DNA of 64,000 nt from Protonemura montana (taxonomy: Eukaryota > Arthropoda > Insecta > Plecoptera > Nemouridae). The notes under the pieces are model-generated. The model saw nothing but the letters and a program-made list of their open reading frames with translations. It was not told where the DNA came from and ran no database searches. Within the stretch, counting starts at the first letter, position 1. Each line of letters opens with the position of its first letter. Positions 1-64,000 of this stretch are shown here, piece by piece. A program made the position numbers and the translations under genes. Location: the NCBI GenBank assembly GCA_947568835.1, contig OX387604.1:124001-188000 (forward strand), written 5' to 3'.

Positions 1-2738
1 TTGCAGAAGAGCATGATCGATTGCATGGTTTGGAATGATTACAACTCTTGAATATCATTCTGTAATGTTGTAATGTTACTTTTAAATGCAGATAACCTCC
101 TGATGATGAAAATAATATATCTTTTATGCAGGTTACTCAGAGGAAAATGTTTGAAATGAATGGCAAGCACCAAGATACTGATTCGAATATCAATACAACC
201 AACATTTCCCACACAGTTGTTTCCAGAATTAGTCAAACAGATATGATTTCCTTGGCTTCATGTGAAAGCTGTCAGATGAATGAAGCACTCATGAAGAAAC
301 TAATCACGTGGATAGAAAATACTTGTCATGATATCGACAGAGAATCTTCAGTTACTGCCCAGAGGTACAATAAATACTTATTTACAAACATGTTATTACT
401 AGAGCCAAGATTTTATGGTGTTATGATTTCGTTAATTTCGTGGTAAGCTTTTTGGATTTCGGTGTTATGGCGGTGTTATGGAAAAAGTACAGAATTTCAT
501 GTCTATAGCAGATTTCGGACATAGGTGACGAAAAAAAGAAGAATAGTTAAACATAGTGTTTCTGTTCAATAAGTTCCTTTAAAATGTAGCTTATACCTTT
601 ATGTTTCATAAAATACACTGTTACGCCACAAGGAAACTACAAAACAAATAAGACACAAGAAACATTTATCCGTATCAGCTCCATGTTTTTATTATTATTG
701 ATGCAAAATTAAATTAATTTCAATTAGCTCCTATTTGTAACACTAATTTTCCAAAAAGAGTTTAAAACTAAAAAGTTTGTCAGTGAGGGGTTTGAGATTT
801 TTATGTCCATGATAATTTGAATTAGACCCACTGTCTGGTACTAACAACATACTTTGCAAGATTGTATTTTTTTCTCCCAGACAAGTCTGGTGTTTTAGAT
901 TCCACACATCAAAATATATCCATCACTCACAAAGAGTTGCTTTGTTTGATCCTCAAAAGTCAAAAATGTAATACACGCCATTGAAATTTGAAATCCCTGC
1001 TAATCTCTATGTAGACTGAATGCATGTGATGCTGGTGCTCACATGGCAAGGAGGGGAAGATTCAGCCAACCAATGGCAATAGTTTCCTACAGCAAACATT
1101 TTGCACCACTACTTCTACCCCCTAAGCCTAGGAATGTTGACAGCATTTGATGAGAAACAGACCTGACAACAAGACTGGGGGAAATAATCTGACAAATTCA
1201 TGGAATGTGTGTTTAGAGAGATAAAATAAACATTTAAAATTTTTTGAATGGAAATTAGTGGCTATTTCGCAAAATACACACATTTTAGTGAAATGGGTTA
1301 TTTTGTTTGTTTATTTATTTTCCGTGATATGTGGCTTGATAAAAATGAAAAAAGAACAGATTATCTGAAATTTAAGATACTTGGATGGGAAAAGGCTCAT
1401 TTCGCGATGATTTCGCGGGAAATGGTTGATTTCGGTGTTATGGATGATTTTTCGTGAATTTCGCGTTATGTCGCGATGAGCTTCTTACATATTTGAGATG
1501 GGAATTCAATGAATCGCACTCATTTGTAAGAAAAACAAGAGATAAGAACAATTCGCGATTTCGCGCATCACCATATAATCGTGGCTCTAGTTATTACCTA
1601 TAAGCAAAACCTTCTTGTGTTTTATGACTGCGCATATTATTTCAAATAAAAGTTCTGATTCCACACTTCAAGAAATAAAATTCCGATTCCTTTAATTCAA
1701 GAATGAGAATAAAGGTTCAGATTGGAAAACACAAAGTGTTTATTATTTGTAATTATTACTTCAACTCCAGCAACTGGTTCATATACTTACCTATTTCTAT
1801 TTTCATTTTGTTGCATTGACTTGTTTATATGTTTTACTGACTATGTTTATATCATCTATGTATGATCAACTCAAACAATTAACAACATTTTATTAGTGCC
1901 AAGTTAAATACTAATATCTTTGGGTAGCGCGTAAAGACCAACTACAATTCTACGACACTTTGCATTCGATATTTGAGGTAGTTTACAGTTAGAAAATACT
2001 TTAGCAAGAGCATACAAATTTGATTGTACCCCAATTAAAATGACAGTAATAATCACAGGAAGGTGGCGTCGAAGGAAATAATACAAACAACGCAGTGGCA
2101 TTGTATGGGAAGTTGGGCTGATGCCATCGTTGAAGATCTTACCAACCTCCAAGTCAACTACAAGGAGTTCAGTCTTCAAAACACTCAGCTGATCAAGTTG
2201 GTGAGAGCTACACAAAGCAAATTGGAGAAAAAAACCCAAGGAAACCAGGATTATATCAAGAAGCTAAAAATACAATGCAAAGATTCTAAAGTGAATCTGG
2301 AAGAAAAGCAAAATCAGCTCAGCCAAGTAAACATGAAGTGGCAGCTATTGTTCAGTGATAAAGAAGAAAGTTACAAAATATTAGAAATGGAATTGAAACT
2401 CACTGGTTTGTATAGATAATCGATTATTGTTGAATTACACTGAATCTGTCTGTAAAAGTACTTCTAAAAGTACTTCAATCCTACCTATCAGAATGTTGCA
2501 GCCCACACAAGTTAGTCTTCTATTTCTGCATTTAGATCAACTACTAGCAGAAAGTGTCTGCAAGGAAAAGTGCACACAAAATGCTCTTGAAGAAATGCAC
2601 CAGCAGCTGGAGGTGGTTTCTAATGATAGAAACACACAAGCCAATGAAATTGCAGGATTACATGTCAGACTTCTCCGGGAGCAACAGGATTACCAAACTA
2701 AATGTGCTGAGTTTCAGATGCAAGCTGCAGGTCTTCAG
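1..2738 (+). CDS. CCDC157: CCDC157-like coiled-coil protein, copy A (5' end outside window)
   Basis: Exons seen: 1-27 (end of exon 2, donor GTTTGG), 132-364, 2059-2405 and 2551-2738. Phases join cleanly (0; 2+1; 1+2). Exon 132-364 has a Cys-x-x-Cys patch (SCESCQ) before a helical stretch, like the DACAS region of vertebrate CCDC157. Exon 2059-2405 starts with a G-x-W-A motif (MGSWADA) followed by a Gln/Lys-rich coiled coil. Exon 2551-2738 is also coiled coil. I see no convincing 3' exon; a coding-like stretch at 2755-2860 is open but unassigned. The vertebrate protein is a poorly characterised, mostly coiled-coil protein. The name rests on remembered similarity, strongest in the exons that only copy B contains. 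Confidence 0.65.
399..1590. mobile_element. MITE-like element in CCDC157 intron (copy A)
   Basis: The ends are imperfect inverted repeats of about 22 bp: CTAGAGCCAAGATTTTATGG on the left, and the complement of the right end reads CTAGAGCCACGATTATATGG. Both sides are flanked by TTATTA (393-398 and 1591-1596), a 6-bp candidate target-site duplication; a 3-bp TTA duplication of Harbinger type is the alternative. Subterminal DNA is rich in TTTCGCG and GGTGTTATGG motifs. No transposase is seen, so it is non-autonomous. It occupies most of the 365-2058 intron. Confidence 0.6.
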
Positions 2739-3794
2739 GTAAAGTAATGTTCAACTGTCGGAAACTTATCGGAAAATATTGTTACTTTACAAGTGAAACA
2801 AAGAAGATCTCTAGAAATGCAAAGCTCTGTTATTGCAAGATCTTACCCATGACCAAGGCAATTTTCACAAAGCTTTGCTTCAAGGACCCATAACAAATAA
2901 CAAGTTGCATTGGCAAGTCCAAGCTCCCAAATGTCAAGAAAAGTTGCATAGCATTGTATTGCAAAGATGTAAATGAATAAAGTTAAGCAGTCTTTACACG
3001 TACATTACCTGAGTAATTAGATGGTCCCAGCTGATTGCAAACTCAAACGCATGGCCTCACTTGCAAGTATTCACAATTGCACAAAGCCAAACCTAAAACT
3101 CACTCAAAAACAGGAATGTACCTCGGTCAGTGAGGAACACGAGATATGACTTGAAAGTCAAACTCCATTTAAAACACAACGGTTAAATTCAACTCAAAAA
3201 TTGTCTTTCAATGTTAATAATAGGATAATGTATCAATGGAATGTCATGAGTTTTCACTCCATTTGCTTGTCTATTGCTACTGGCAAACATATCATCAAAT
3301 ATATCATTAAATATATCATTAGAGGTGTAATTTATGTGAAATACTTGTAAGAAGCTTGAAGCTGAAAGAAAGCGGGGAGGAAGACATCCCAACCACTGGC
3401 AACCACGCTGCTCGCTGGCATTCAAGTTCATGGTCGGATAAAACCCAGGCAAGCTCACTCCACTGCACACGTGAAAAGCAAACCCGGCAAACAACACTCG
3501 GTGCATTCCTCGTAAAACTCTCATGTTTTTATTAAATTAGCAATCCACTGTCTTATTTTGTAAACAACAATGTCAGACAAGTGAAACAAATTGAACAATA
3601 CATTATTAGTTTGTAGGTTTATGTACACTCTTGTCCTTCTCTAAATAATTCATTGATTTAACTCCTGATATCAGTCAAATATTATATACTTTTGGTAGAC
3701 AAAAGGAGATTGAAAGCAACAATTCATGAAATCTGGTTGAGAAATGTCTGCTAGGCAAACCAACAGCACGCCACGAGGCCAAGCCAGTACTTAC
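2739..3794. other. Convergent intergenic/3' region, no gene recognised
   Basis: AT-rich DNA between the last recognised CCDC157 exon and the next predicted exon. Short open stretches occur (about 2755-2860 and 2850-2975 on +; 3189-3524 on -), but none resembles a protein I know. A short direct repeat lies at 3291-3325. Confidence 0.4.
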
Positions 3795-3965
3795 GACTTT
3801 GCGGCAATTGTCCACTGAAAACTTCGGCGTTTCCACCGGGAACCGAGGGGTCTGGACCAGGACCAGGATCAGGATCAGGGGTTCTTTTGTCAGGAGCTTT
3901 GTTAGGGAAGACGCAGGACTTTCTGTTGCCAGCCCAAGCTAGCCTAATCTCTGTGTAGCTAATAT
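3795..3965 (-). CDS. Predicted unassigned exon with Asp/Pro/Gly repeat
   Basis: On the minus strand an acceptor (CACACTAG) precedes 171 open bases that end at a strong donor (GTAAGTACT). The translation includes a low-complexity PDPDPGPGPDP tract. It lies about 430 bp downstream of the SERCA stop on the same strand, so it could be an alternative SERCA 3' exon. Known alternative SERCA tails are hydrophobic and this one is not, so a separate gene or a chance ORF is equally possible. Identical copy at 62035-62205. Confidence 0.3.
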
Positions 3966-4394
3966 CTAGTGTGTGAATAAATAGAAAAGAGGTTAATGAA
4001 TGCACATTTTGCCCGGCAAATTACTAGTGGAAAGGTGAGTGAGTCTCCGCTTACGTTCCTGCACTACGTTTAATAATAAATACTCGCTACTAACATATTT
4101 TGTTTGTGTGTAATGAAGGTATACAAGTACGCTACTACGATTATCACCCAGTGGCGCCAACCCCCACGTTGCGGGAATCACTTTCGTGTAAAATTATTGT
4201 CAGGCGAGTAATATTGGGCCGAGGAATCCTCTGCCGGAACGTACTAACTGCTAAAAAAAGAACCGCTTCCTTTCTATATAAAAATAACACCTCGCATACA
4301 AAACAAAAGGCACTTCTCTAAGAATTTAAGTGAACTCCTAGAGTTTGTTGGGCTGGAGGTTAAGTAGGTGCTTGGTTGTGGGTATCCAGGGGGC

Positions 4395-13461
<9,067 letters not shown>

Positions 13462-13469
13462 CTGAAACA

Positions 13470-14085
13470 AAAGAAACAAGTGAATGAAGTACCAAGTGTA
13501 ATAAGAGTTTGTTCTGCTAGGGACCCTAGATTCAGTGTCTAGAAGGGGAGGGGCGTTTAGAAGGCTTCGTTCAACACGCGAGCTCAAGGCGTGTACAGAT
13601 ATCAGTCTACTGTCTGACGTCACCAGCTACTGTCTGACGTCACAGCGACCGAGTTAAGCGACAACGCCGTCATTCAACGTCGATGCACTCGGCGAGAGTC
13701 GGAAATAGCGGCGACTCAAGATCTTGCCTCGGTAAACCAGTTTCCGTTTGAAACAACGCACAAACATCAACCGAAATAGAAGTTAAATAGAAGCCAAAGA
13801 GAAGCCAAAGAGAAGCCTCTATTAAATCTGACAGCAGACAAAAAGCCATCAAATCATAACGGCCATCAAGAATCAACAGATCGATGCAATGTAATGGAAG
13901 CCAGCGAACATCTCTTTAGTCAGAGACAATGGAAGGATTGTTAGATTGTTTACTCTAAGCTTAAAAACTCTAAAGATACAGAACCACAGCATCTTGTAAG
14001 ATCAACCATTTCTAGCAGCACCAGCACCAGCCACGTGGAACAAAACCAAATATTGCTCGGGAAATATTGGTCAAAAGTCCCTCGT
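13470..14085. other. Non-coding region upstream of SERCA exon 2
   Basis: Should be the large first intron of SERCA. A 20-bp direct repeat with a CRE-like TGACGTCA core lies at 13606-13643. No exon 1 (about 39 codons ending ...KYGPN) was found here on the minus strand. Confidence 0.4.
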
Positions 14086-14086
14086 T

Positions 14087-14830
14087 TGGCAAGGCATGGC
14101 ATGGCATGGCAGGGCAAGGCAAGACATGGCATGGCATGGCATGGCATGACATGGCATGGCAGGGCAAGGCAAGACATGGCATGGCATGGCATGGCAAGGC
14201 AAGGCATGGCATGGCAAGGCATGGCATGGCATGGCATGGCATGGCAAGGCATGGCATGGCATGGCATGGCAAGGCATGGCATGGCAAGGCATGGCAAGGC
14301 ATGGCATGGTATGGCATGGCATGGCATGGCATGGCATGGCAAGGCAAGGCATGGCATGACATGGCATGCCATGGCATGGCAAGGCAAGGCATGACATGGC
14401 ATGGCATGGCATGGCATGGCAAGGCATGACATGGCAAGGCAAGGCATGACATGGCATGGCATGGCATGGCATGACATGGCAAGGCATGGCATGGCAAGGC
14501 ATGGCATGGCATGGCAAGGCATGGCATGGCATGGCATGGCAAGGCATGGCATGGCAAGGCAAGGCATGGCAAGGCATGGCATGGCAAGGCATGGCATGGC
14601 ATGGCAAGGCATGACATGGCAAGGCATGGCATCGCATGGCAAGGCATGGCAAGGCATGGCAAGGCATGGCAAGGCATGGCATGGCATGGCATGGCGAGGC
14701 AAGGCATGGCAAGGCATGGCATGGCATGGCATGGCAAGACATGGCATGGCATGGCATGGCATGGCATGGCAAGGCAAGGCATGGCATGGCATGGCATGGC
14801 ATGGCATGGCATGGCATGGCAAGGTATGGT
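14087..14830 (+). repeat. GGCAT/GGCAA pentamer microsatellite, ~745 bp
   Basis: Unbroken pentamer phase of ATGGC and AAGGC with rare GGTAT, GACAT, GCCAT and GCGAG units. A 5-bp period without stop codons makes long ORFs in all frames of both strands (MPCHA, MAWHG repeats). They are compositional artefacts. Confidence 0.95.
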
Positions 14831-15213
14831 ATATCTAATGGTATGGTATGACATGGTTCGTTATGGCATGTTATGGCATAGCAGGAAGCCTTGGTGTTGC
14901 GATAGCAAGATAAAGTATGATTGGAGTTTTAAATCACGTAGAACAAATACAAGGTGGATTAGCGCCAAGTCTTATCAATATTCCTGGCACACAGCGCCGA
15001 CATTAGTAACATCCCTCTTTGCCCCCTCAACAAACCATGATGATATATTTCCACTTTGTATTGCATCTTGAAATATTGAAACCTACCTGTCAAGAGTCAC
15101 TGCTGTAGGATGAGTTGAAGTTGACAGCTCAACTATACGTCCTTCCAGACTTCACTGCAAGCTAGAATCAAACAAACACAAAGTCAGAAGATGGTTGCAT
15201 TGGCCATGTGGCA
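14831..15213 (-). other. Non-coding region with one exon-like segment
   Basis: On the minus strand an acceptor (TAGCTTGCAG) and a donor (GACAGGTAGGT) bracket about 70 bp near 15090-15160 with no long open frame. It could be a 5' UTR exon of SERCA, but nothing else supports it. Confidence 0.2.
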
Positions 15214-15690
15214 GGGTCATTCCATGTGTAATCACTCACTTTTAATTAAATTTCACTTTGACCGACCCAGATTTTGATGAAAATTGGTATACTTGTTAAG
15301 TTTGTTGACTTAGGGGCTATTTTTTTTTTTTTTTTTTTTTGGTCCAACCGTTCGGATATTACAAGGGGGGGAAGTTGGGGTCATTTTGCCCCCCGGGCGT
15401 GTAGTGACCACCCTTTCTACGCAATATCTAGGGTTCTATGGGAGCTACAGAGCTGGGAAAAAAATCATCTGAAAGGTAATTTCATACCCTACCTGAATAT
15501 GGAAACAAAAATGACGATATGTTAATACGAATTTAATTGTGATTTTACACATCTGCATTTTCCAAAATGACCATATCGCTGATGAGTCATTTTTGATTTG
15601 CCTGATTTTTTTTCTATATATACAGAACATACATATGATCATGTGTTCCAAAAATCAAGATGGGTGTTTTACCACTTTCCAAGAAAAAAA
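15214..15690 (+). repeat. Left terminal inverted repeat of Sola-like element
   Basis: Complement of 18850-19324 with scattered differences, including an insertion-like TTTTAATTAAATTTC at 15240 and a homopolymer T-run length change. Both TIRs contain the same 68-codon open frame, simply because they are copies. Confidence 0.9.
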
Positions 15691-16135
15691 ATTTTTTCTA
15701 TAAAAAAGTGCCTTTTTGCCAGTAGAACAGCATTTTGATCACAATTATTGTGATCAGAGCACTGGCATATATTTTATATTAAAGTTGATTTTTGTTTGCA
15801 CAGTTGCATGTTCTTGAAATGTTATTCTCTACAATACAAATCGATTGTTTGCCATATTCCTGTAAATCATGGATCAAGTTGAAACAGTTCATAGAAGTCA
15901 AAAGTTTGTTCATTTCTTGTCTGGACTTGCATCTACAAGAATCTTAAAATGGTATTCCCTAGAATACAACTATAGATTGTTTGTCATGCTCCTGAATCAT
16001 GGATCAAGTTGTAACAGGTTACAAGTAAAAAGTTTGGTAATTTCTTGTCTGGACTAAAGCAATCAGTCTCTGGCCTCATGTTGATGAGGATAGAAGCTAA
16101 TTTGCTCTCAAGCACCTTTTATTTAGAGATTCATA

Positions 16136-18718: not shown

Positions 18719-18849
18719 GGTAAACTACATCTCTCTTAAGATATGCAAATTTGTACTTCATAGTAGCTATGATTGTAAGTAATGATCATTTTCTTGAATG
18801 TTGTCTTAAATTCAGTTCATATTAATTTATATTATGAATGAATTTGCAG

Positions 18850-19324: not shown

Positions 19325-19649
19325 GGCACTGATCTTTAATGAGGTCTGTGAATGAGGGGATGATGAGGCTGCTTTTCAGACTCTGAGTAAAAGTACAGTG
19401 AATACAACAAAACTGGGAGCCGAGATAATCGCAGTGGTTATTTTTAGCACGCTATTTTTGCTATTTTTCCATAAAAGCGCAATGTTCTGAAAGTTTAGAA
19501 CCAAAAAGTTATTTTATTTGAGCAGGCATACTTCTAATTATTAGTAATACAATAGTTTTCTTGGATCTTGCATAGTATTTTCTTGTTTGACGCGTTTCGC
19601 TGACCAATAAATTCCGCTAAATTACTAAATTGGACCGCCTGAAGCAATA

Positions 19650-21298: not shown

Positions 21299-21299
21299 G

Positions 21300-22730: not shown

Positions 22731-22734
22731 CAAA

Positions 22735-48282: not shown

Positions 48283-48311
48283 ACACTTACCCCTACCCCT
48301 ACCATTGATAC

Positions 48312-51300
48312 CTGTCAAGTCCAGCTGTTGTAGGGAGGATGCACTTTGGACCAACTGCAGGAGGTCTGCATCATTAGTTCCACGACAAGCAGCCAGGCCC
48401 AGCTTCTTCAGCGAAGAACAAGATTCCACCAACGGAAGAAGATCTCCAACTTCATCTGCCAGACTGGAAAACAAATACAACTGTTACTGTCAAACCCAAA
48501 CATTTCTGAGAGGCTTCATATTGCTACTAGACACATTTATAAAAAGCATTTTTTCATCTTTAAGAACGAGTAGCAAGTCTTAAAGATCAGGAGTTAACAT
48601 TATGTGCTTTTCTGATTTTCAGATGTAATTGAGATAAACCTTTTTTTATCTCATAACTGGCCCAAACTTTATCACAAAACTTTCAGATAAACTTTATCAG
48701 TTCTTTGGCAAAATGCAACTGTAATTTTTTGATAATCTTCACAGTTAAAGCTAACAACAGAAAGAAGATAGTATATATAGATATAGTAGCGCTGCTATAG
48801 CTGAATTCAGCAATGATCAGCAATAACAATACAGCTATGATATGTCAAATACTTGACAGTTAAAGCTAACAACAGAAAGAAGATAGTATATATAGATATA
48901 GTAGCGCTGCTATAGCTGAATTCAGCAATGATCAGCAATAACAATACAGCTATGATATGTCAAATACTTGACAGTTAAAGCTAACAACAGAAAGAAGATA
49001 GTATATATAGATATAGTAGCGCTGCTATAGCTGAATTCAGCAATGATCAGCAATAACAATACAGCTATGATATGTCAAATACTTGACAGTTAAAGCTAAC
49101 AACAGAAAGAAGATAGTATATATAGATATAGTAGCGCTGCTATAGCTGAATTCAGCAATGATCAGCAATAACAATACAGCAATGATATGTCAAACTTGCA
49201 GTACCCGCTGCCTAACGGCCGCTTAAGATTTTGAGGGACTGGGCATTTTGGTTTAAATGTAAAGCCTACCATGCAATACCATACAGTACCCCCATTTATT
49301 TTATTTGAAATTTGCCGCTTATGTCACTTAGGGTCACTGCATTGTGGAAACTCTGTGAATTCTTAAGTGACCACGATGACAATTTCGAAAACAAACGACG
49401 TTGGCTGTCAAAAGATTTCCGTGTATGATTTCTTGAAATATTTCTTAGAGAGTGAAACTTGTGAAATACCTTTTACATCTCCACTAGATCTTACTAAAAA
49501 CATGTTTAAAGAACGGATAAGCACTTAGAATTGACAAAATGTAATTTAAGTTGTTTGACATTGATTGAGAACTGTCAAAATCTTTCCTTGCCACCAAGTT
49601 TTAAATAAAATTTATTATGAAAATCCCAATAAATCATCGTATAAATGTCGCGTAGGGTCGTGCTCTGAAGTCATGTAAAATTTAAAATTATTCCCAGCAA
49701 TGTTTGACCGGTTTCTTAAAAGTATTTGACATTCTAATCCCGTTTGACGTTTGAAAATCCTGAATGCACTGCCGCAAAGATAAGTTCAAGAATTCGTTCA
49801 CCTTGCTGTGGTTAAAAAACCAAACAAATTAATGCATCTGTCAAACTTTTTGCAAATTAATTAATATTTCACGTAAAACGAACTTAAATAACAGTGTTTG
49901 GGCTCAATTTCTTCAACAACTTCCATGGGAATGCATGAAGAGTATTACCGAGATGCTGCAGGTCATTTAAAGGCAAGTTTGAATTAAATAAAAATCGAGC
50001 TGTCAGACATGGCTTTAAATCGCCTCGCCAGCCACGATGCAAACACAATTATCAATATTTCACCAAAAAAATGCTTTCAAATCTCCCTCAAAGTGTCACA
50101 ATAGGAAAAAGATACTTCACCAGAAGAACATGCATTGCATGACATCACGGTATGAGTTGGTGACAGAGAACGGAGGAGGCCGAGCTTGAGAAGAAGTCAC
50201 TGATCCTTGTTCTCTGTTTCATGAATGAATCCAACAGCGACCTGTAAATAAATCAATCAGTAAAGAAGATGATTAATTAAGATCTATTAGGCCCCTGACT
50301 AGGCCAGTGTGTGATCCTTCAAGGGCAGGTCAAAGATTGGGTTGTGACAATATCACAAAGTGTTCAAAATGCAGCTCAGAAAAATACATTTCTAAATTTC
50401 TCATGGCAAAATTAGTTGAGTATAGTTTGTAAAAGATACAGTCTGTCGTGTAGCCACTAGATCGTGGCCCACTAATGCGGTCAGGTGGTGAATAATTAGA
50501 GTGTATGGGACAAAATGGTCATCACAGACATGGAACATCTGAGCTGACAAGATTGTCGGGTCGCTGCCACCAGCCCTGCCTAACAGAGGCCTAACAGGGG
50601 CCTAACAGAGGCCTAACAGAGGCCTAACAGGGGCCTAACAGAGGCCTAACAGGGGCTTAACAGGGGCTTAACAGAGGCCTAACAGGGGCTTAACAGAGGC
50701 CTAACAGGGGCCTAACAGGGGCTTAACAGAGGCCTAACAGGGGCCTAACAGAGGCCTAACAGAGGCCTAACAGGGGCCTAACAGAGGCCTAACAGGGGCT
50801 TAACAGGGGCCTAACAGAGGCCTAACAGGGGCTTAACAGGGGCCTAACAGAGGCCTAACAGGGGCTTAACAGGGGCTTAACAGGGGCGTAACAGAGGCTT
50901 ATTGCCATTATGGAAATTCGGTACGCGCTCTTCAGAAAGTGTGAATTCGCCAAAGCGTGAGCCTTGGTTTCCTGAGTGCAATGGAAATTGAAATCGGCAA
51001 GATTGACTGAATGAATGAACAAGAGACACAAATTTAGGATTGAAATGATGATTTGAATTAAATTATAGAAACAATATGATCTAGACGGTACTACTTACAA
51101 TTCTCTAGTGGATAACCACACACATTGCTCTTTAATATTGCTAACAAAATAATATCTAGTAAAGACGAAGAAAATAGAAAGAACTGGAACATTGAACTTG
51201 AATTACTAACGTAATTTACACTTGAACTTTACAATGAAGCTAAAAGAAGTGACCGCTCACTTGCTAGAGGAACAGAGGGATGGTACAGAGGGAAGTTGCA

Positions 51301-54300
51301 AGTGCTAAAGGTCAGTGGAGGTGGTTTGACGCATACTGTAGGAATGTGAGGCTGGTATATTGAAGAAGGGTTGGGTTTGCTGACCAACGGTAAATGTGGG
51401 TTAAAAGCGTAGAAATGAGGAGACAGTGATGCTATGAGAAAGGAATTGAAATCAGAAATAGAATATGTACATTGGTTTGCTAGCTTGGCTCGACTGGCAT
51501 GACACAGTCCAATCACACTCATTCCGAGATATTCAAAGCAATTTCAGCAAATGTTAGAACATTTTGACAAACATGATCATTTAGGCACAAAAACAACTAC
51601 ATCCAAATAAGACGTCACGGCACAAGTCTCCCGACCCATATCGACTCAAAATTGAACAAGGAATCCAAATATACCAACAAAAAAGCAATCCGACCAGGAT
51701 TATCCGTGCGGCGGTATGGGTATATCATGAATATGAATATCAATATCGGTATGAATATCATGGTGAAATCAGCATGTGAAACAAGTTTCGTGCATTGAAT
51801 CAAGTAGAACATAACCACAAAATGCGCAGAAGAAGTACGTACCTTTGTTTCTTCTCTCGTGTCCTGGTAGAATTATTTTTCGTCCTCTTTCTACTTCCAA
51901 CACTACATTTCCCCACATTTACACCTTCTAGATCCTCTCAAGCCATTAATTAGACAAATAAACGTCTTACCTATCGAATAAACACACGATAAAATGCCAA
52001 CGTGCTGTCAACAGGTTGCACTACTTTGCATAAGAAATGCAGCAGGAATATCGGTCAGAGGCGATAAATCCAGACGAAAAATGGGGCATATTTGAATAGT
52101 ACACAATTTTACATACGCATTGCAGCATAATTCTTGGTCAGAGGCAATGGATCCAGCAGGGTAGGAATATAGTACCGCCAATTAGAAGCTACGTTTGAAC
52201 AGAGGTTTGAACTTACTGACGCTTGCCTTGGAAGTGAAATCAGCTGTTTTGTTGCTTCATTGCCCGTGAACTCGTGTGGATTTCACACCACAAGAGGTGC
52301 TAATTTATCAAAACTGGGGATGTTAATAAAGTTTAAATCAGTGTCGTATTGTAAAAAAGTCTATGCAAGATATTTTAAATATCAGCTTTTTAATTTATTT
52401 TATCTTTTATGCAGTGATGTATTCGTAAAATTTTTAGTGGGGGTACGCAAAAATGACCCATTTTTTTGTGTCGGTGGGGGGGGGGGGGGGGGGAGGAGGA
52501 GACCCAAGGCGAATGCACCGAAAGAGTGGAAATAGGGGGCTTCGGGCGCAGCTACAAGTGAATTTTTATTCTAAGGTTTCTTTTGGAGCCAATCTACGAG
52601 TTTACGATGAAATTGGGCTTGGAATGACATGGTCAGAACTGCATTTTTAATTACGTAATGATTTTGAGAAAATTAAATTAATGCCGCCCTCTCATGTCTA
52701 CACCTTCCCACATTGTTGCAGTCTTGAAATTTGGTGGGGATTCGGGAATCTGGTAAAAGAAAGTCTAATCATTTTAATCGAATACTAGTTTAAATTTTTG
52801 TTGAAACTATCCATAGATACGCGCGTACTTTCGCGTTGAGGAGATTACATCAGTTTCCACAATGACTCTTTTTCATTGAACTCTTCTTCATTCGACGTTG
52901 GTGGTGTCTTCAACTTCTCCCAAACCAAATTTTGGTTTTTTAGGAGGAGCAAGGCCCGAAAGGGAATGCAAATCCACTTGCTTCCTCTTCTGTATCTTGA
53001 ATTGAACTAACTCGTCCAGTGTGGCTCGTATGTGGCAATTTGGTTATTGTTTGTATTTTTGTCTTTCCTGCGAATTCTTATTATTTGAAGCGGGCTTGCT
53101 TCTGAGAGCTTGCCCCGCCGTGCGACGCCGCGAAAGCGGCTACCGACTTCCCTACGTGATAACAGTAATATGGTTCTAACTAACCCCTTTGTTGCAAGTC
53201 GCGACGCCGACATAGTTCCAGCCTACCTACTCTTAGTACGTTCGCATACAGTGGCAATCTTGCTAGGTCTATTTTTAAGTAAGTGGATTATTAGAAATAA
53301 AACCCTTAACTGGGATATTTTCGGCTTTTAAAAAAAGAAGTGCAGGATATTCCGAATAATCATAATTTAATACTGCTTTCCCGTGCATTCACCTGCGTTC
53401 CCTCAAAAATTCAAAGTGGGGGTACGGCCAAAAATAAAATTAATAGTGGGTGGACTGCGTACACCCGCGTGCATTGACCAATACATCACTGCTTTTATGC
53501 CATACAGATAAAATTGCAAATTAAAAATCAACACAGCTGCCTTTTTGATGATTTTTTCTCTAACCATACAAACATTTTTGGGGAAACTTGATTTTCAAAG
53601 CCATAATACCGACTCAACCAGCTTCTTCTCAACAAGCTATGATGAAGTCAACACCCTAATATCATGTACCAAAAAATTTTTTCTAAAGCTCCATCGAGGA
53701 TAAATACTTATCTAAATTTGCTACCTGGAGTTCCGCTGCCACCTGAACCTATCATCACTCGTTGGGGATCACGGATTGAGGCAGCTATATTCTATTGTGA
53801 CCACCTTGAGGAGGTCAAATCAGTGATAGTGTCGTTTGATCCAGAAGAGGCGGCAAGCATAAAAACCCTTCAGAAATTATTCACATCCAAATCAAAAGTT
53901 AGCGATCTGATATATATTAAATCCAATTTTGGTACCATTCCTGGAAAAATAAAATTGCTAGAGACGATTTGAGAACCTTTGACGACATCGCTTCAGATAA
54001 TACAAGATCTCCACTCGGAACTGTCTAAAGCTCCCGGTGGCCGTGCCAAAGTAGCACTTAACAAACTGGACTATGTACTGTAAGGTGAGACCCTGTAAAT
54101 ACCTCTAAACGTCTCGATGCTCGCAAGTGTACGTCGACGCACGCAATGTCGTCCTACGAAGGGGTAGGGTGCGGGGTACAAAGTTTGCCTAATATAAAAC
54201 ACTCTTAAGAAATAACAATTTACTCTCAATGCACGACATCTCTGATAGGTACATGAAAGGTAATATGAAAATAATCCTAATTACAAACTAACAATTTACT

Positions 54301-57295
54301 ATAAGAGTGATAAGATAAAAAATCCCTAAGTCCCTAGCTAGCTGTCATTGGCCAGAATAAAATTATGAAGATTACTTGAATTTGATCGCCGAGGTAGCCG
54401 TGTTTCTCCGTCGATCAGGCGACGACGTTCGCGTTGACTCGTCGAACAGGCGTCGTGTGACTAATGAGGATCGCGACTTAGGCGTCGTGGCTCGGGTTCG
54501 CGTCGCAACTCCGGGCGCAATCAAACAGGCGGCGTGGATCGAGGCCGCGTCGCAACTCGGGCGACGTCGTGGTATCAGGCGACGTCGTGGCTCAGGATTC
54601 GTAGCTCGAGACAGCGTCGCCACTCCAGGCTTCGTACCTCCGCTGACTTGGTGTACTGGTCCCGGTGTACTCTCTCGTCTCCTCTGATCAGCCTTCTCAC
54701 GTTCCCGGTCTCGGGCCTTCTCCCGTTCCTCCCTTGTTCTTCCGCTGGCGTTCCTCACGCTCCCTCTCCAGATTACACCTCGTGACTTCCTCGGCCAATC
54801 ATTTACTCGAATTTATTCTATTGTACATTTTAAGAACTATAACTAATTGGGAGAGGCACTTTGGAAAGGATCATGGGGACTGGACCTCACTGCGAACATC
54901 GACACATTCCTGCGAAGCATGTGGCTACCCAGTCGCCTTTCAACCGATGCCAGAACACTTGTCACCCTTACAAAACTATCGGATATTAAACAGACGCGCG
55001 TGCCTCGAAGATTGTATGCATTATGTGCATCGCGCAAACCGATGCCAGAATACTTGTCACCCTTATTGATGCCTAACAGATATATTATACAGATGGCTCG
55101 ACGCACATGGCTCGAAGATTGTATGCATTATGTGCACCTCACAAACCGATGCCAGAATACTTGTCACCCTTATTGATGCCTAACAGATATATTATACAGA
55201 TGGCTCGACGCACATGGCTAGAAGATTGTATGCAATATGTGCATCGCACAAACCGATGCCAGAATACTTGTCACCCTTATTGATGCCTAACAGATATATT
55301 ATACAGATAGCTCGACGCACATGGCTAGAAGATTGTATGCATTATGTGCATCGCACAAACCGATGCCAGAATACTTGTCACCCTTATTGATGCCTAACAG
55401 ATATATTATGCAGATAGCTCGACGCACATGGCTCGAAGATTGTATGCATTATGTGCATCGCACAAACCGATGCCAGAATACTTGTCACCCTTATTGATGC
55501 CTAACAGATATATTATACAGATGGCTCGACGCACATGGCTAGAAGATTGTACGCATTATGTGCATCGCACAAACCGATGCCAGAATACTTGTCACCCTTA
55601 TTGATGCCTAACAGATATATTATACAGATGGCTCGACGCACATGGCTCGAAGATTGTATGCATTATGTGCACCTCACAATTCGTCCCCATCCCACTTGAG
55701 TGAAGCCCAGCTACGCGAAAAAAAACTAAAAAATACAACAGGCTTCTGGCCGAATCAAAACCCTCGCGAAACGCCGAGACCACGTACTCCATAGACCTCG
55801 CGGCTTCTCCCATGCCTGCACCCGAGAGCAAAAGTTCCGCACGCCACTCCACTGGCTGACGCAATTCATTGGCAAGAGGTAGTAAATGAAAATCGCTAAC
55901 AGCGACTTGCGAGTGCGCATCCCGCGTCTCAATTTACATCCATACAACAACACTTATCAGATTTTAATGCACGACTCCTATGCTATCGACATAATAATAA
56001 AACCTTACGAGAACTTGCTTAACCTAGTAATTTCTTTAGTAAATGAAGCTAAATTGGACCCCGATCTCCATCTGTCGCGGGTGTTGCTCTAACCAATTGA
56101 GCTACTCGAACCCCGATCTCCACCTGTCACGGGTGTTGCTCTAACCAATTGAGCTACTCGAACCCCGATCTCCACCTGTCACGGGTGTTGCTCTAACCAA
56201 TTGAGCTACTTGGACCCCGATCTCCACCTGTCGCGGGTGTTGCTCTTACCTATTGAGCTACTTGGACCCCGATCTCCCCCTGTCGCGGGTGTTGCTCTAA
56301 CCAATTGAGCTACTTGGACCCCGATCTCCACCTGTCGCGGGTGTTGCTCTAACCTATTGAGCTACTTGGACACTAGTTTTTTGAGATGATTTTAGTGTAT
56401 TTGGTGGTCATTTGTTCTACCTTGTGGGAAATGGAATGTTTCTGAGCGGTGGAGAAAAGATGCGAGATTGTTTCTCCGTGGAATGTGGTTCCCCCTCGTA
56501 AAGCAAACGCCAGCGAATGTCTTGTGAGATGTTAGCAGCGTAAGGACACGCCCAGATTCTTACAACGCTGCCTGGGTTGTCTGTCTCATAGACACTGACT
56601 TCACTCGGGAATACAGCCAACTCTAAGCTGACCACTAACAAACAACAATATTTACTTATTTACAAACACTTACATAACATTTGGGTACCAACATCAGATA
56701 CAGATACCCATCTACAGAAGATAAATGGATAAATATACCAGTAAACAATGAAATAACTACATGAATTTAACTACAATTACTTCTTCTGACACTTGTAGCA
56801 CATGGACTACATTGAGGTTAAGTTGCTTACGTCTTTGTTGCTTACCTACAAAATCCTTCGCTTGGATTCGAGCCAAGTTTTGCGTTTGAATGGGTTTGCT
56901 CGCGGAAGGCGCCATATCCCACCACGGGCCATAAGTCCTCTAGAAGATAGACTCTTTAAGCATACTTAACAAGATTAGCGTTGTTGGAAGGCTTCATCAA
57001 ATTTCGGTGACTGCTTGGTCCGACAACTTACAGGAGAATATGCTTCGTGAGAGTCGCCATAACGTGGAAAAACTCTTGGTTTTCCAATCAAATTGACTGC
57101 CGTGAACGAAATACTAGAGCTATTTCCATATTGAGAACTGCACAGTAATATTTCATTAACAAATTGCTCGATTTTGCCCGCGCTGGTCACACTACTAACC
57201 ACAGATTCTTCCATGACAGGCAAGCCAGAGTCGATGAAAGTCAGAGCCGATGGATCTGGCGCCCATCGATGATTTTCAACTTTTGCGCTAAACAT
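48312..57295 (-). CDS. FBXL4: FBXL4-like F-box/LRR protein, partial exon set
   Basis: Minus exons: 57032-57295 (ATG; ends LLCSSQYGNSSSISFTAVNL...FPRYGD), 56846-56939 (RTYGPWWDMAPSAS...AKDFV), 56421-56634 (LAVFPSEVSVYETDNPGSVV...IFSPPLRNIPFPT) and 48312-48463 (LADEVGDLLPLVESCSSLKK...LQQLDLTG). Phases of the first three agree (0; 1+2). The first three match the FBXL4 N-terminal discoidin-like region (SSHYG...[35 protein letters not shown]); the fourth matches its C-terminal LRRs. Human FBXL4 is a mitochondrial SCF-type factor that limits mitophagy. The F-box and middle LRR exons were not found, nor was the last exon. The N-terminus is not clearly mitochondrial. Confidence 0.75.
48741..49195 (+). 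repeat. 115-bp tandem repeat (4 copies, nearly identical)
   Basis: ACAGTTAAAGCTAACAACAG starts at 48741, 48856, 48971 and 49086. Each unit includes TAGTAGCGCTGCTATAGCTG, a near-palindrome. Located in an FBXL4 intron. Confidence 0.95.
49200..50570. other. Intronic region; one possible damaged LRR exon
   Basis: At 50113-50238 (minus), an acceptor ATTTATTTACAG is followed by SLLDSFMKQRTRISDFF; in a shifted frame the text LLLKLGLLRSLSPT follows. This looks vaguely like an FBXL4 LRR with a frameshift. The rest of the region shows nothing recognisable. Confidence 0.3.
50575..50902 (+). repeat. 11-bp minisatellite (AGGCCTAACAG)
   Basis: About 29 units of AGGCCTAACAG, GGGCCTAACAG and GGGCTTAACAG. 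Third 11-bp or 5-bp-family array in the window. Confidence 0.95.
50903..52403. other. Intronic region, no gene recognised
   Basis: A minus-strand 97-codon ORF (51229-51522) is Pro/Ser/Leu-rich without known domains. A hAT MITE starts at 52412. Confidence 0.3.
52412..53491. mobile_element. hAT-type non-autonomous element with 8-bp TSD
   Basis: Ends CAGTGATGTATTCG and (complement of right end) CAGTGATGTATTGG. Flanked by CTTTTATG on both sides (52404-52411, 53492-53499). 1080 bp without transposase. Contains a run of about 19 G at 52475 and GC-rich palindromic DNA at 53110-53150. Subterminal GGGGGTACGC is shared with its other end and with the MITE at 24989. Confidence 0.9.
53640..54082 (+). 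pseudogene. hAT-family transposase C-terminal fragment
   Basis: Reads FLKAPSRINTYLNLLPGVPL-PPEPIITRWGSRIEAAIFYCDHLEEVKS..., a TGA at about 53970, then EPLTTSLQIIQDLHSELSK and NKLDYVL. Similar proteins (KAPSR...LPLPP.P..TRWG.WLEA) are widespread in arthropod genomes as hAT-like transposases. The start is out of frame with the upstream STSYDEVNTLIS. Interrupted, so inactive. It lies 150 bp from the hAT MITE but outside its TSD. Confidence 0.65.
54376..54770. repeat. GC-rich degenerate repeat (GGCGACGTCGTGG...)
   Basis: CpG-rich with repeated GACGTCGTGGCTC and CGCGTCGCAACTC words. Both strands show Arg-rich ORFs (EEREKARDREREKA on minus). No defined family. Confidence 0.45.
54955..55680 (+). 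repeat. 107-bp tandem repeat (~6.5 copies)
   Basis: CCTTATTGATGCCTAACAGA starts at 55061, 55168, 55275 and so on. The unit includes GAAGATTGTATGCATTATGT and CAAACCGATGCCAGAATACT. In an FBXL4 intron. Confidence 0.95.
56053..56372 (-). repeat. 52-bp tRNA-derived array (6 copies)
   Basis: Same unit as 11205-12190 and 29060-29371 on the minus strand, with variants CTACTCGAACC and TAACCTATTGAGC. Sits 50 bp from FBXL4 exon 56421-56634. Confidence 0.9.
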
Positions 57296-57350
57296 GTCAG
57301 TGCTCCTGACTAAGGGAATGATTTACTCATTTACTCTTAATTTTTAAACG
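57296..57350. promoter_or_regulatory. 55-bp divergent gap between FBXL4 and CCDC157 start codons
   Basis: FBXL4 ATG is 57295-57293 (minus) and CCDC157 ATG is 57351-57353 (plus). A shared bidirectional promoter is inferred; transcription starts must overlap the neighbouring coding exon or use very short 5' UTRs. No TATA box; AT-rich TTACTCATTTACTC repeat. Confidence 0.5.
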
Positions 57351-60300
57351 ATGGCACAATTAAATGAAAACTTGATTCGTGCCATGGTGTGGGATCTGAA
57401 AGAAGTAGTCAATATCTCGATTACATTGTCTTCGTGGATGGGCAAGATTGACTGCAAGTCTTGGAGATATCCTTCCAAGCAGTCACAATCTGTAGATGTC
57501 TAGTCTATTTTTAACAAGCTCAATGGATCTGCTGGTGAATACTACATCAATCTTTTAGAATGCATCTATGACAGGTAACTTAACTATTGTACCGAAATCC
57601 ATCCAAATAATTCTGGTATTTGGAATAGAATTTGGGAAAAATTATTTTAGAATTCAGCTGGCTATATTTTTTATTCGGATGTGAGCATGAGTTAGCGTAT
57701 ATGACCCTACCAACTGAATTAAAATTCAGAATCTAATACGTACATTCTACCTTCAACCATGGAATTCACATCAACAACTAAAAGTTGCCTGCAGCACACT
57801 GAAATATAGGTTGAGTCTTGTACTAAAATAATTACTATACGTACCTACTGGGCATCTTATTATTATGGGAATCTTACTGAATCTATTCTGATACCACAAC
57901 AACATACTTTATTGGGTGTTCAGAATCTTAAAGTCACAGCAAAGAAGTTTCCAGGAGTTACTGAGTCTACCAGATAGATTTTACTGAAGCGGTGCGTTTC
58001 GGAAGGCGACAAAACTGGCACAAAAGAGCGATTATTGTTCTGTGCTATTAAATGTGAACATCACTTTTACCTCGTTCTGTTTTTTTTTTCAGACTTTTAT
58101 TGATTCTGAATTTACTGATAAAATTTGTGGACAATTTTCCAAATCCCTCGACCAATTTGTATGCGGCTAAAAATGTGATCCGTCCACAACAGCTCTCACT
58201 TGGAGGTCTACTAAACATATTCTGGTCGAGAATGCAATCTTTGCAGAAGAGCATGATCGATTGCATGGTTTGGAATGATTACAACTCTTGAATATCATTC
58301 TGTAATGTTGTAATGTTACTTTTAAATGCAGATAACCTCCTGATGATGAAAATAATATATCTTTTATGCAGGTTACTCAGAGGAAAATGTTTGAAATGAA
58401 TGGCAAGCACCAAGATACTGATTCGAATATCAATACAACCAACATTTCCCACACAGTTGTTTCCAGAATTAGTCAAACAGATATGATTTCCTTGGCTTCA
58501 TGTGAAAGCTGTCAGATGAATGAAGCACTCATGAAGAAACTAATCACGTGGATAGAAAATACTTGTCATGATATCGACAGAGAATCTTCAGTTACTGCCC
58601 AGAGGTACAATAAATACTTATTTACAAACATGTTATTACTAGAGCCAAGATTTTATGGTGTTATGATTTCGTTAATTTCGTGGTAAGCTTTTTGGATTTC
58701 GGTGTTATGGCGGTGTTATGGAAAAAGTACAGAATTTCATGTCTATAGCAGATTTCGGACATAGGTGACGAAAAAAAGAAGAATAGTTAAACATAGTGTT
58801 TCTGTTCAATAAGTTCCTTTAAAATGTAGCTTATACCTTTATGTTTCATAAAATACACTGTTACGCCACAAGGAAACTACAAAACAAATAAGACACAAGA
58901 AACATTTATCCGTATCAGCTCCATGTTTTTATTATTATTGATGCAAAATTAAATTAATTTCAATTAGCTCCTATTTGTAACACTAATTTTCCAAAAAGAG
59001 TTTAAAACTAAAAAGTTTGTCAGTGAGGGGTTTGAGATTTTTATGTCCATGATAATTTGAATTAGACCCACTGTCTGGTACTAACAACATACTTTGCAAG
59101 ATTGTATTTTTTTCTCCCAGACAAGTCTGGTGTTTTAGATTCCACACATCAAAATATATCCATCACTCACAAAGAGTTGCTTTGTTTGATCCTCAAAAGT
59201 CAAAAATGTAATACACGCCATTGAAATTTGAAATCCCTGCTAATCTCTATGTAGACTGAATGCATGTGATGCTGGTGCTCACATGGCAAGGAGGGGAAGA
59301 TTCAGCCAACCAATGGCAATAGTTTCCTACAGCAAACATTTTGCACCACTACTTCTACCCCCTAAGCCTAGGAATGTTGACAGCATTTGATGAGAAACAG
59401 ACCTGACAACAAGACTGGGGGAAATAATCTGACAAATTCATGGAATGTGTGTTTAGAGAGATAAAATAAACATTTAAAATTTTTTGAATGGAAATTAGTG
59501 GCTATTTCGCAAAATACACACATTTTAGTGAAATGGGTTATTTTGTTTGTTTATTTATTTTCCGTGATATGTGGCTTGATAAAAATGAAAAAAGAACAGA
59601 TTATCTGAAATTTAAGATACTTGGATGGGAAAAGGCTCATTTCGCGATGATTTCGCGGGAAATGGTTGATTTCGGTGTTATGGATGATTTTTCGTGAATT
59701 TCGCGTTATGTCGCGATGAGCTTCTTACATATTTGAGATGGGAATTCAATGAATCGCACTCATTTGTAAGAAAAACAAGAGATAAGAACAATTCGCGATT
59801 TCGCGCATCACCATATAATCGTGGCTCTAGTTATTACCTATAAGCAAAACCTTCTTGTGTTTTATGACTGCGCATATTATTTCAAATAAAAGTTCTGATT
59901 CCACACTTCAAGAAATAAAATTCCGATTCCTTTAATTCAAGAATGAGAATAAAGGTTCAGATTGGAAAACACAAAGTGTTTATTATTTGTAATTATTACT
60001 TCAACTCCAGCAACTGGTTCATATACTTACCTATTTCTATTTTCATTTTGTTGCATTGACTTGTTTATATGTTTTACTGACTATGTTTATATCATCTATG
60101 TATGATCAACTCAAACAATTAACAACATTTTATTAGTGCCAAGTTAAATACTAATATCTTTGGGTAGCGCGTAAAGACCAACTACAATTCTACGACACTT
60201 TGCATTCGATATTTGAGGTAGTTTACAGTTAGAAAATACTTTAGCAAGAGCATACAAATTTGATTGTACCCCAATTAAAATGACAGTAATAATCACAGGA

Positions 60301-60978
60301 AGGTGGCGTCGAAGGAAATAATACAAACAACGCAGTGGCATTGTATGGGAAGTTGGGCTGATGCCATCGTTGAAGATCTTACCAACCTCCAAGTCAACTA
60401 CAAGGAGTTCAGTCTTCAAAACACTCAGCTGATCAAGTTGGTGAGAGCTACACAAAGCAAATTGGAGAAAAAAACCCAAGGAAACCAGGATTATATCAAG
60501 AAGCTAAAAATACAATGCAAAGATTCTAAAGTGAATCTGGAAGAAAAGCAAAATCAGCTCAGCCAAGTAAACATGAAGTGGCAGCTATTGTTCAGTGATA
60601 AAGAAGAAAGTTACAAAATATTAGAAATGGAATTGAAACTCACTGGTTTGTATAGATAATCGATTATTGTTGAATTACACTGAATCTGTCTGTAAAAGTA
60701 CTTCTAAAAGTACTTCAATCCTACCTATCAGAATGTTGCAGCCCACACAAGTTAGTCTTCTATTTCTGCATTTAGATCAACTACTAGCAGAAAGTGTCTG
60801 CAAGGAAAAGTGCACACAAAATGCTCTTGAAGAAATGCACCAGCAGCTGGAGGTGGTTTCTAATGATAGAAACACACAAGCCAATGAAATTGCAGGATTA
60901 CATGTCAGACTTCTCCGGGAGCAACAGGATTACCAAACTAAATGTGCTGAGTTTCAGATGCAAGCTGCAGGTCTTCAG
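57351..60978 (+). CDS. CCDC157: CCDC157-like protein, copy B with 5' end
   Basis: Exons 57351-57574 (ATG), 58093-58267, 58372-58604, 60299-60645 and 60791-60978; all phases agree. Exon 1: MAQLNENLIRAMVWDLKEVV...SWRYPSKQSQSVDV, TAG (57501-57503), SIFNKLN...LLECIYD. It parallels human CCDC157 (SWKFPDRM...DLDMVALLEHY). Exon 2: LLLILNLLIKFVDNFPN...GGLLNIFWSRMQSLQK parallels the vertebrate region that follows. Later exons as in copy A. The TAG at codon 51 would truncate the protein. The start is chosen because it is the first ATG and matches the vertebrate N-terminal length. 3' exons not found. Confidence 0.7.
57501..57503 (+). other. CCDC157: In-frame TAG in CCDC157 exon 1
   Basis: Codon 51 of an exon that otherwise reads through cleanly to its donor (ACAG|GTAACT). 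It is the fourth in-frame TAG in conserved exons of this window. Confidence 0.75.
58639..59830. mobile_element. MITE-like element (copy B)
   Basis: Duplicate of 399-1590 with the same TTATTA flanks; part of the large duplication, not an independent insertion. Confidence 0.6.
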
Positions 60979-62634
60979 GTAAAGTAATGTTCAACTGTCG
61001 GAAACTTATCGGAAAATATTGTTACTTTACAAGTGAAACAAAGAAGATCTCTAGAAATGCAAAGCTCTGTTATTGCAAGATCTTACCCATGACCAAGGCA
61101 ATTTTCACAAAGCTTTGCTTCAAGGACCCATAACAAATAACAAGTTGCATTGGCAAGTCCAAGCTCCCAAATGTCAAGAAAAGTTGCATAGCATTGTATT
61201 GCAAAGATGTAAATGAATAAAGTTAAGCAGTCTTTACACGTACATTACCTGAGTAATTAGATGGTCCCAGCTGATTGCAAACTCAAACGCATGGCCTCAC
61301 TTGCAAGTATTCACAATTGCACAAAGCCAAACCTAAAACTCACTCAAAAACAGGAATGTACCTCGGTCAGTGAGGAACACGAGATATGACTTGAAAGTCA
61401 AACTCCATTTAAAACACAACGGTTAAATTCAACTCAAAAATTGTCTTTCAATGTTAATAATAGGATAATGTATCAATGGAATGTCATGAGTTTTCACTCC
61501 ATTTGCTTGTCTATTGCTACTGGCAAACATATCATCAAATATATCATTAAATATATCATTAGAGGTGTAATTTATGTGAAATACTTGTAAGAAGCTTGAA
61601 GCTGAAAGAAAGCGGGGAGGAAGACATCCCAACCACTGGCAACCACGCTGCTCGCTGGCATTCAAGTTCATGGTCGGATAAAACCCAGGCAAGCTCACTC
61701 CACTGCACACGTGAAAAGCAAACCCGGCAAACAACACTCGGTGCATTCCTCGTAAAACTCTCATGTTTTTATTAAATTAGCAATCCACTGTCTTATTTTG
61801 TAAACAACAATGTCAGACAAGTGAAACAAATTGAACAATACATTATTAGTTTGTAGGTTTATGTACACTCTTGTCCTTCTCTAAATAATTCATTGATTTA
61901 ACTCCTGATATCAGTCAAATATTACATACTTTTGGTAGACAAAAGGAGATTGAAAGCAACAATTCATGAAATCTGGTTGAGAAATGTCTGCTAGGCAAAC
62001 CAACAGCACGCCACGAGGCCAAGCCAGTACTTACGACTTTGCGGCAATTGTCCACTGAAAACTTCGGCGTTTCCACCGGGAACCGAGGGGTCTGGACCAG
62101 GACCAGGATCAGGATCAGGGGTTCTTTTGTCAGGAGCTTTGTTAGGGAAGACGCAGGACTTTCTGTTGCCAGCCCAAGCTAGCCTAATCTCTGTGTAGCT
62201 AATATCTAGTGTGTGAATAAATAGAAAAGAGGTTAATGAATGCACATTTTGCCCGGCAAATTACTAGTGGAAAGGTGAGTGAGTCTCCGCTTACGTTCCT
62301 GCACTACGTTTAATAATAAATACTCGCTACTAACATATTTTGTTTGTGTGTAATGAAGGTATACAAGTACGCTACTACGATTATCACCCAGTGGCGCCAA
62401 CCCCCACGTTGCGGGAATCACTTTCGTGTAAAATTATTGTCAGGCGAGTAATATTGGGCCGAGGAATCCTCTGCCGGAACGTACTAACTGCTAAAAAAAG
62501 AACCGCTTCCTTTCTATATAAAAATAACACCTCGCATACAAAACAAAAGGCACTTCTCTAAGAATTTAAGTGAACTCCTAGAGTTTGTTGGGCTGGAGGT
62601 TAAGTAGGTGCTTGGTTGTGGGTATCCAGGGGGC

Positions 62635-63467
<833 letters not shown>

Positions 63468-63714
63468 CTAGAAACAAAACAAACAAAACAATTGAAATTA
63501 CTTGGCTACTGTCACATCATTGCAAACTTTGATAGGATGATGAACCTACATCATCAAAAGTTAATATAAAATCTCTAAATATTCCTATATTTTGAGTCGT
63601 TATGAAACTACCAGACCGATATTTCTAAAAACCGCGTGGGGTCGAAGTTGGGAACACTGGAATGTGCTCTGCAAATTTGATTGCAATCGGAGCAGGTGAA
63701 AATTGAAAGGTTAA

Positions 63715-64000
63715 GGGTCATTCCATGTGTAATCACTCACCTCAAACTTTGACCGACCCAGATTTTGATGAAAATTGGTATACTTGTTAAGTTTGTTGAC
63801 TTAGGGGCTATTTTTTAATTTTTTTTTTTTTGGTCCAACCGTTCGGATATTACAAGGGGGGGAAGTTGGGGTCATTTTGCCCCCCGCGCGTGTAGTGACC
63901 ACCCTTTCTACGCAATATCTAGGGTTCTATGGGAGCTACAGAGCTGGGAAAAAAATCATCTGAAAGGTAATTTCATACCCTACCTGAATATGGAAACAAA
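63715..64000 (-). mobile_element. Sola-like element, second insertion, cut by window end
   Basis: GGGTCATTCCATGTGTAATC begins at 63715 after TTAA (63711-63714). Copy A reads GGTTAAGTCAAC uninterrupted, so TTAA is the expected 4-bp target. The visible 286 bp match the right TIR of the 15214-19324 element (same CACCTC and GCGCGTG variants), so it is probably in the opposite orientation with its transposase on minus. Confidence 0.85.

Follow-up and report, generated by a model that had tools for sequence, protein, structure and literature searches.

In this study, we asked how two nearly identical stretches of DNA came to lie next to each other close to one end of a chromosome of the stonefly Protonemura montana. 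The window, meaning the whole stretch analysed, comprises 64,000 nucleotides of contig OX387604.1 (here C16, 29.6 Mb; C16:124001-188000) in an assembly of 258.5 Mb in 34 contigs, and lies 0.1–0.2 Mb away from the contig end. An earlier note on this DNA had offered a choice between a very recent isolated tandem duplication and two haplotypes placed end to end by the assembler. We conclude that the two copies, termed A and B, each carrying one SERCA calcium-ATPase gene, are very probably neighbours within a family of subtelomeric segmental duplications, in which SERCA is mostly a dead passenger. The duplication is indeed in tandem, but the choice offered was too narrow, since the unit belongs to a family found on all 11 contigs longer than 12 Mb.

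For self-comparison, the window was joined with C16:4001-124000 and C16:188001-268000 to give 264 kb (C16:4001-268000). The near-identity of positions 1–5475 and 58241–63715, from which the question arose, was reproduced, with 5,475 bp aligning without gaps and a single mismatch at 3685/61925; base 63715 of copy B already belongs to a transposon, and its match to copy A is due to chance. Leftward past the window the same match continues ungapped for 2,806 bp with 0 mismatches, and a collinear chain of 12 blocks at 89.7–100% identity connects C16:99663-156393 with C16:157087-214915. The duplication is larger than first noted and takes in nearly the whole window and flanking DNA. Copy A consists of a 404-bp head from C16:98477, a 774-bp insertion and the sequence from 99663 to 156393, and copy B (C16:156683-214915) is the adjacent unit; both are free of gaps. 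The previously reported offset of 58.24 kb holds locally but not in general, matching blocks lying 54.8–62.4 kb apart because the array lengths and insertions of A and B differ.

The genome-wide distribution of the unit supports our conclusion. Eleven contigs exceed 12 Mb (C1–C5 and C11–C16; lengths were given for C1–C20, and the other 14 contigs total about 1.0 Mb). A protein search with one SERCA exon (window 8197–8919, minus strand), in which 55 of 55 candidates were scored, gave 61 matches, comprising 39 full or nearly full loci, one locus split by a frameshift, nine loci with an in-frame loss of 76 residues, a 41-residue fragment and a paralogue (55% over 49 residues, C2:16.09 Mb). With fragment and paralogue set aside, 49 exon loci at 97–100% amino-acid identity are spread over all 11 large contigs, 47 of them elsewhere than in copies A and B. 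Every one lies within about 1.0 Mb of a contig end, the farthest on C11, and the loci are confined to one end per contig, either the left (C2, C5, C12, C13 and C16, minus strand) or the right (C1, C3, C4, C11, C14 and C15, plus strand). All 49 read towards their own contig end, in a single orientation. A second SERCA exon was found in 42 copies at 95–100%, with four other matches at 34–46% (50 of 50 candidates scored), and within reach of these two exon searches no SERCA gene was found outside the arrays anywhere in the assembly. The same picture was obtained with DNA queries: window 8204–11200, within the SERCA region, gave 46 matches, all near contig ends (best 40 of 2,040 candidates), and window 2700–4780 gave 40 scored matches at 98–100%, likewise near contig ends, A and B included and some of them partial. 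Location near the ends, sharing at high identity among non-homologous chromosomes and constant orientation, by which subtelomeric duplications are recognised, are thus all observed. As a side observation, the exon variant with the in-frame loss of 76 residues occurs at its nine loci on C5, C11, C12 and C15 (e.g. C5:105089-105583), and the two loci read as DNA were identical.

Several points weigh against this reading. The main doubt concerns C5 and C12, which are the same at all three places compared (0 differences in 2,601 bases and 0 in two 723-bp exons); this could mean either that they exchanged sequence very recently or that the assembly shows a single chromosome end in two places. C2 and C13 are also close: of five pairs compared, four show a difference of 0–1 base and one a difference of 5. 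Seven of the eleven array-bearing tips read N (C2, C12) or end without a pentamer array (C3, C4, C5, C14, C15). The opposite ends may be incompletely assembled, the left end of C15 reading N; a TTAGG array is present at the right end of C12, the sole one among the 11 opposite tips. A pattern search for TTAGG gave 6,445 exact matches, of which those listed were all on C1 and many interior; since the motif also occurs inside chromosomes, it proves little by itself, and the label "telomere" depends partly on position. Sequences related to the unit head, with 87–97% identity, also occur well away from the ends (C11:2.28 and 17.41 Mb, C12:16.98 Mb, C16:21.28 and 21.44 Mb), and parts of the unit are therefore dispersed repeats. 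It should be noted that copy number and order at the ends come from one assembly.

A false duplication, with the family inflated by scaffolding the haplotigs of a few real ends onto several chromosomes, would account for the identity of C5 with C12 and the near-identity of C2 with C13. Five smaller contigs also have round-thousand lengths, which are typical of scaffolder breaks. However, the 38 exons compared comprise 26 distinct sequences, the spacing of unit heads is unequal among chromosome ends (about 43–75 kb), and C1, C11, C13 and C16 reach terminal pentamer arrays. We consider such an inflation unlikely, and in part it would be compatible with a subtelomeric family. The terminal arrays consist of GGTTT/AAACC on C1, C11 and C13, and of CCTAA followed by a few AAACC on C16; a satellite at the C16 end is common to the tips of C4 and C15, and C3 ends inside a unit. 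The presence of two pentamers at tips (GGTTT on C1, C11 and C13; TTAGG on C16 and C12), with C16 passing from CCTAA to AAACC, suggests variant telomere repeats. We additionally observed several similarly spaced markers in C5:~0-110 kb and C12:~123-238 kb. Window 21000–25700 also occurs at interior chromosome sites with 93–95% identity and thus represents an interspersed repeat, about 5 kb long, in its own right.

The boundary between copies A and B bears on the question of joined haplotypes. A 566-bp piece at this boundary (32521–33086) has matches of ~100% on C1, C2, C5, C12, C13 and C16, and the 404-bp head alone recurs at 98–100% at eleven further near-end sites on ten contigs, C16:98477 included. 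When 2,601 bp were fetched around six head-bearing places and aligned to the C16 junction, five of the six stretches (C1, C2, C5, C12 and C13) matched from end to end with 99.42–99.69% identity, the C5 and C12 alignments beginning at base 4, while the sixth, at C13:192756, had the head side only in common with it. An assembler join on C16 alone is therefore no explanation. Two parental versions of one C16 region placed end to end would be expected to show 0–1.4% divergence and insertions present in one and absent from the other, as A and B do. At the level of sequence comparison, however, the shared junction speaks strongly against this proposal of the earlier note, and no run of at least 5 N occurs in C16:4001-268000. 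Within the initial 640 bp of the tail that was compared, copy A differs from C12, C5, C13, C2 and C1 at 2, 2, 3, 3 and 5 sites (with 12 gap columns in addition for C12 and C5) and from the tail of copy B at 6. The tail of A is thus closer to those following the same junction on five other chromosomes than to that of B, although these counts are small. It is very unlikely that the copies are two parental versions glued together by the assembler, and we have abandoned this reading.

The divergence between A and B was counted in 1-kb bins with tandem arrays, 24% of the stretch, masked. Among the unmasked positions 164 of 36,209 differ, and a chi-square test rejects uniform divergence (408.7, 46 df). 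The initial ~44 kb of the unit (C16:99.6-144.0 kb) has 24 differences in 26,068 positions (0.09%) and the last ~12 kb (C16:144.0-156.4 kb) 140 in 10,141 (1.38%), a 15-fold difference. The near-zero divergence noted previously thus applies to the first part of the unit and fails for the last. A 58-kb tandem duplication that arose very recently and in isolation on C16 would account for the single mismatch in 5,475 bp, for the low divergence over the first ~44 kb and for the finding that A and B have the same 723-bp exon sequence, which occurs in no other of the 38 exons compared. It accounts neither for the more divergent last ~12 kb nor for the junction on five other chromosomes and the 47 exon loci elsewhere. 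A simple isolated duplication is refuted by the shared junction, barring an assembly error repeated at five ends, and we accordingly attach very little probability to it. The recent event on C16 is instead likely to have been an exchange inside an existing family: the bimodal divergence agrees with a single recent event, either an unequal crossover or a long copying tract, whose edge lies at window 19.3–21 kb. The tail counts given above, small as they are, are as expected if the tails represent an older part of the unit.

A and B also differ by insertions. As the earlier note had seen, copy B carries a transposon where copy A has none; it is 4,111 bp long, starts at window 63715, is flanked by TTAA on both sides and has an intact empty site in A. 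An insertion of the same element in copy A (15214–19324) had been missed, and the matching site in copy B is empty. The note's claim of transposition after the separation of the copies is therefore borne out by different insertions in A and B, reciprocal empty sites and target duplications. The two elements show 2 differences in 4,112 compared bases. Genome-wide, all 36 scored copies were full length and printed as 100% identical (best 36 of 434 candidates), and the transposon has therefore been active very recently, in what appears as a very recent burst. Copy A alone additionally holds insertions of 774 bp (8-bp target duplication), 1,370 bp (9-bp) and 1,284 bp (no clear target duplication) besides its 4,111-bp transposon (GGCA); in copy B alone, the 4.1-kb transposon (TTAA) is the one insertion. 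The element has terminal inverted repeats of ~480 bp with 96% identity and an open frame at 16127–18718 encoding 863 aa. Sola-type transposons have a 4-bp target duplication, terminal inverted repeats and one long open frame. The window transposon resembles them in its 4-bp target duplications GGCA and TTAA, its terminal inverted repeats and its one long frame; the likeness is one of structure, as the 863-aa frame had no Pfam match above the cut-off and no significant PDB match.

SERCA is normally an essential calcium pump and a housekeeping gene; the gene found here is of the animal type and contains introns. Copies A and B each contain twelve exon matches corresponding to SERCA residues ~46–989 of a SERCA2 query, and a PDB search with one exon returned SERCA1 (E 2.5e-86); residues 1–45 had no match in any copy. 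In both copies a TAG follows the motif WWFM (~5552 in copy A), where SERCA1 has a Tyr codon. Copy A has a second TAG in the exon at 12464–12607, where copy B has Lys, and the transposon of copy B sits in the intron after the exon with the WWFM TAG; the rest of this pseudogene lies beyond the window (C16:191806-199396). The codon after WWFM was read as DNA in 22 copies, A and B included, and is TAG in 19 and TAT in three. In the genome-wide search with this exon (50 of 50 candidates scored), 39 of 42 copies, again with A and B, have one in-frame TAG, the exceptions being C1:32899941, C1:33004112 and C13:223013. When the query ended at the M of WWFM, no stop was found in 41 of 42 copies, and the TAG therefore lies at or just after that codon, possibly except at C13:491676, where a stop was also found in the shortened search. 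In the copies read, this TAG takes away the last transmembrane part. The exon for residues 107–154 contains a stop in 2 of 39 copies; for the copy at C13:223 kb, this search gave no match.

The copy at C1:32.89-32.90 Mb showed no stops in the stretches read, i.e. ten tblastn segments, the exon for residues 107–154 and the WWFM stretch, which exclude the exon for residues 153–235 and most of 74–110. One tblastn alignment there extends back through a stop preceding the start of the A/B exon match. This copy agrees with the SERCA2 query at two positions where A and B depart from it (R in RVEPSHK and F before VAR), and at two other positions that differ between it and A, neither copy matches the query. 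We infer that the TAG-free copies, above all those at the right end of C1, are likely working genes. No paper on subtelomeric SERCA copies or pseudogenes was found among the literature matches listed.

Selection was assessed on 39 exons (37 other loci and two from C16), i.e. the 40 nearly full loci without the frameshifted C15:12755902. Replacement and silent variants occur at 21:9, and none of them is a stop; the ratio expected in the absence of selection is 2.71:1 (p 0.68), and a tenfold constraint is rejected (p 1.5e-8). As judged from these variants, strong constraint on most copies is excluded, and weak constraint is still compatible. Amplification selected for more calcium pump would explain why the 723-bp exon is stop-free in 39 of 40 nearly full copies, all except one with a frameshift, but is hardly credible given the TAG in 39 of 42 copies with loss of the last transmembrane part, a replacement-to-silent ratio as without selection and the in-frame loss of 76 residues at nine loci. 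Exons differ on average at 4.8 positions within chromosomes (86 pairs) and 4.4 between them (655 pairs), and identical 723-bp exons are found on up to four chromosomes. Since differences are no smaller within chromosomes and identical exons occur across them, exchange between ends looks about as important as exchange within an end.

We propose a model in which a chromosome-end piece containing SERCA spread by ectopic recombination, either non-allelic crossover or break-induced replication, and reached one end of all 11 large chromosomes while keeping its orientation to the end. Unequal crossover at the ends would have amplified the piece into tandem units, which exchange within and between chromosomes then held similar. 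On C16, the last such event would have been an unequal crossover or a long copying tract. It would have homogenised A and B over their initial ~44 kb and come to an end near window 20 kb; the tails beyond, with ~1.4% divergence, would be older. Copy A would later have received four insertions and copy B one, the 4.1-kb transposon inserting once in each. One TAG-bearing SERCA copy may have spread with the block and become the majority. Both the order of events and the type of recombination are inferred here. A further, doubtful possibility is that the array is a shared recombination module, serving end repair or pairing at one end per chromosome, so that selection acts on the array and SERCA, with its only working copies, is carried along. 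If true, an essential gene would reside within a system for recycling chromosome ends, in which dead copies are continually written over it. For the family as proposed, these arrays allow the spread of a dead allele between chromosomes to be watched. They also serve as a warning that other chromosome ends should be searched before near-identical neighbours in an assembly are called haplotypes.

Table 1. Positions of features in the window (window coordinates unless C16 is given)
Feature	Position	Strand	Basis or remark
Copy A, part in window	1..32393	+	collinear block chain; whole copy C16:~98477-156393
Near-identical segment, copy A	1..5475	+	one mismatch to 58241-63715
SERCA-type calcium ATPase pseudogene, copy A	4488..13354	-	twelve exon matches, two in-frame TAG
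Copy A exon matches 1-6	13268-13354, 13084-13194, 12464-12607, 10931-11179, 9911-10144, 9151-9468	-	
Copy A exon matches 7-12	8203-8916, 6730-6957, ~5514-5996, 5045-5227, 4670-4801, 4488-4592	-	
DNA transposon, copy A, 4,111 bp	15214..19324	+	target duplication GGCA at 15210-15213, 19325-19328
Divergence step zone 0.09% to 1.38%, inferred breakpoint of last exchange	19325..21000	.	divergence bins
Array of 91-bp units resembling 5S rRNA	20720-20995	.	Rfam 5S matches 20676-20792, 24380-24500
A/B junction	32521..33094	+	~163 bp dispersed repeat, 404-bp unit head 32683-33086, unit B proper from 33087
Copy B, part in window	32683..64000	+	collinear block chain; runs on to C16:214915
Near-identical segment, copy B	58241..63714	+	ungapped alignment to copy A
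SERCA pseudogene, copy B, last three recognisable exons	62728-62832, 62910-63041, 63285-63467	-	exon matches
Second transposon insertion, copy B, start	63715..64000	-	C16:187715-191825, target duplication TTAA

Besides these features, the window contains arrays at 11204–12210, 29061–29368, 56054–56371, 25833–26118 and 20720–20995 with units resembling pieces of tRNA (52 and 69 bp) or 5S rRNA. The tRNA-like resemblance of the 52- and 69-bp units was judged by eye; ARAGORN found no tRNA in the window, and Rfam no rRNA there besides the 5S-like matches. Long pentamer arrays lie at 41315–48282, 14087–14829 and 12707–13063 (CTTGG/TTGGC, TGGCA, TTAGG), of which the CTTGG array differs in length between A and B. 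Outside the window, C16:26440-50623 consists of two direct tandem copies of 12,093 bp (26440–38532 and 38531–50623) that are 100% identical; either the duplication is of extremely recent date or the assembly overlaps with itself here.

Subtelomeric duplications have been described from primates, yeasts, Plasmodium and Schistosoma. Human subtelomeric duplicons (Ambrosini et al. 2007, PMC2323237) are blocks on several ends with varying divergence and order, some of them near ends only; P. montana likewise has blocks common to several chromosome ends, but here a single block family occupies one end of each large chromosome, on several of them in tandem, and all found copies of a housekeeping gene lie inside it. 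The subtelomeric segmental duplications of Schistosoma mansoni (PMC10900676), also inter-chromosomal, near ends and in an animal, include a 49-copy gene family, a number reached here as well; their median nucleotide distance is given as 17.33 and their gene families are discussed as functional, whereas the P. montana units diverge by 0–2% and hold mostly broken copies of one pump gene. Human acrocentric short arms (PMC10172130) undergo exchange and have long homologous regions on non-homologous chromosomes at one end each, as is the case here, though rRNA detected in our window by Rfam amounts to 5S-like matches alone. In Plasmodium falciparum (PMC2279139), a conserved subtelomeric duplication has a similarly variable copy number, in a distant organism and with other gene content. 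The kind of structure described here is thus already known; what is unusual is its presence at one end of all large chromosomes in a single orientation, with all found copies of an essential pump inside it and most of them dead.

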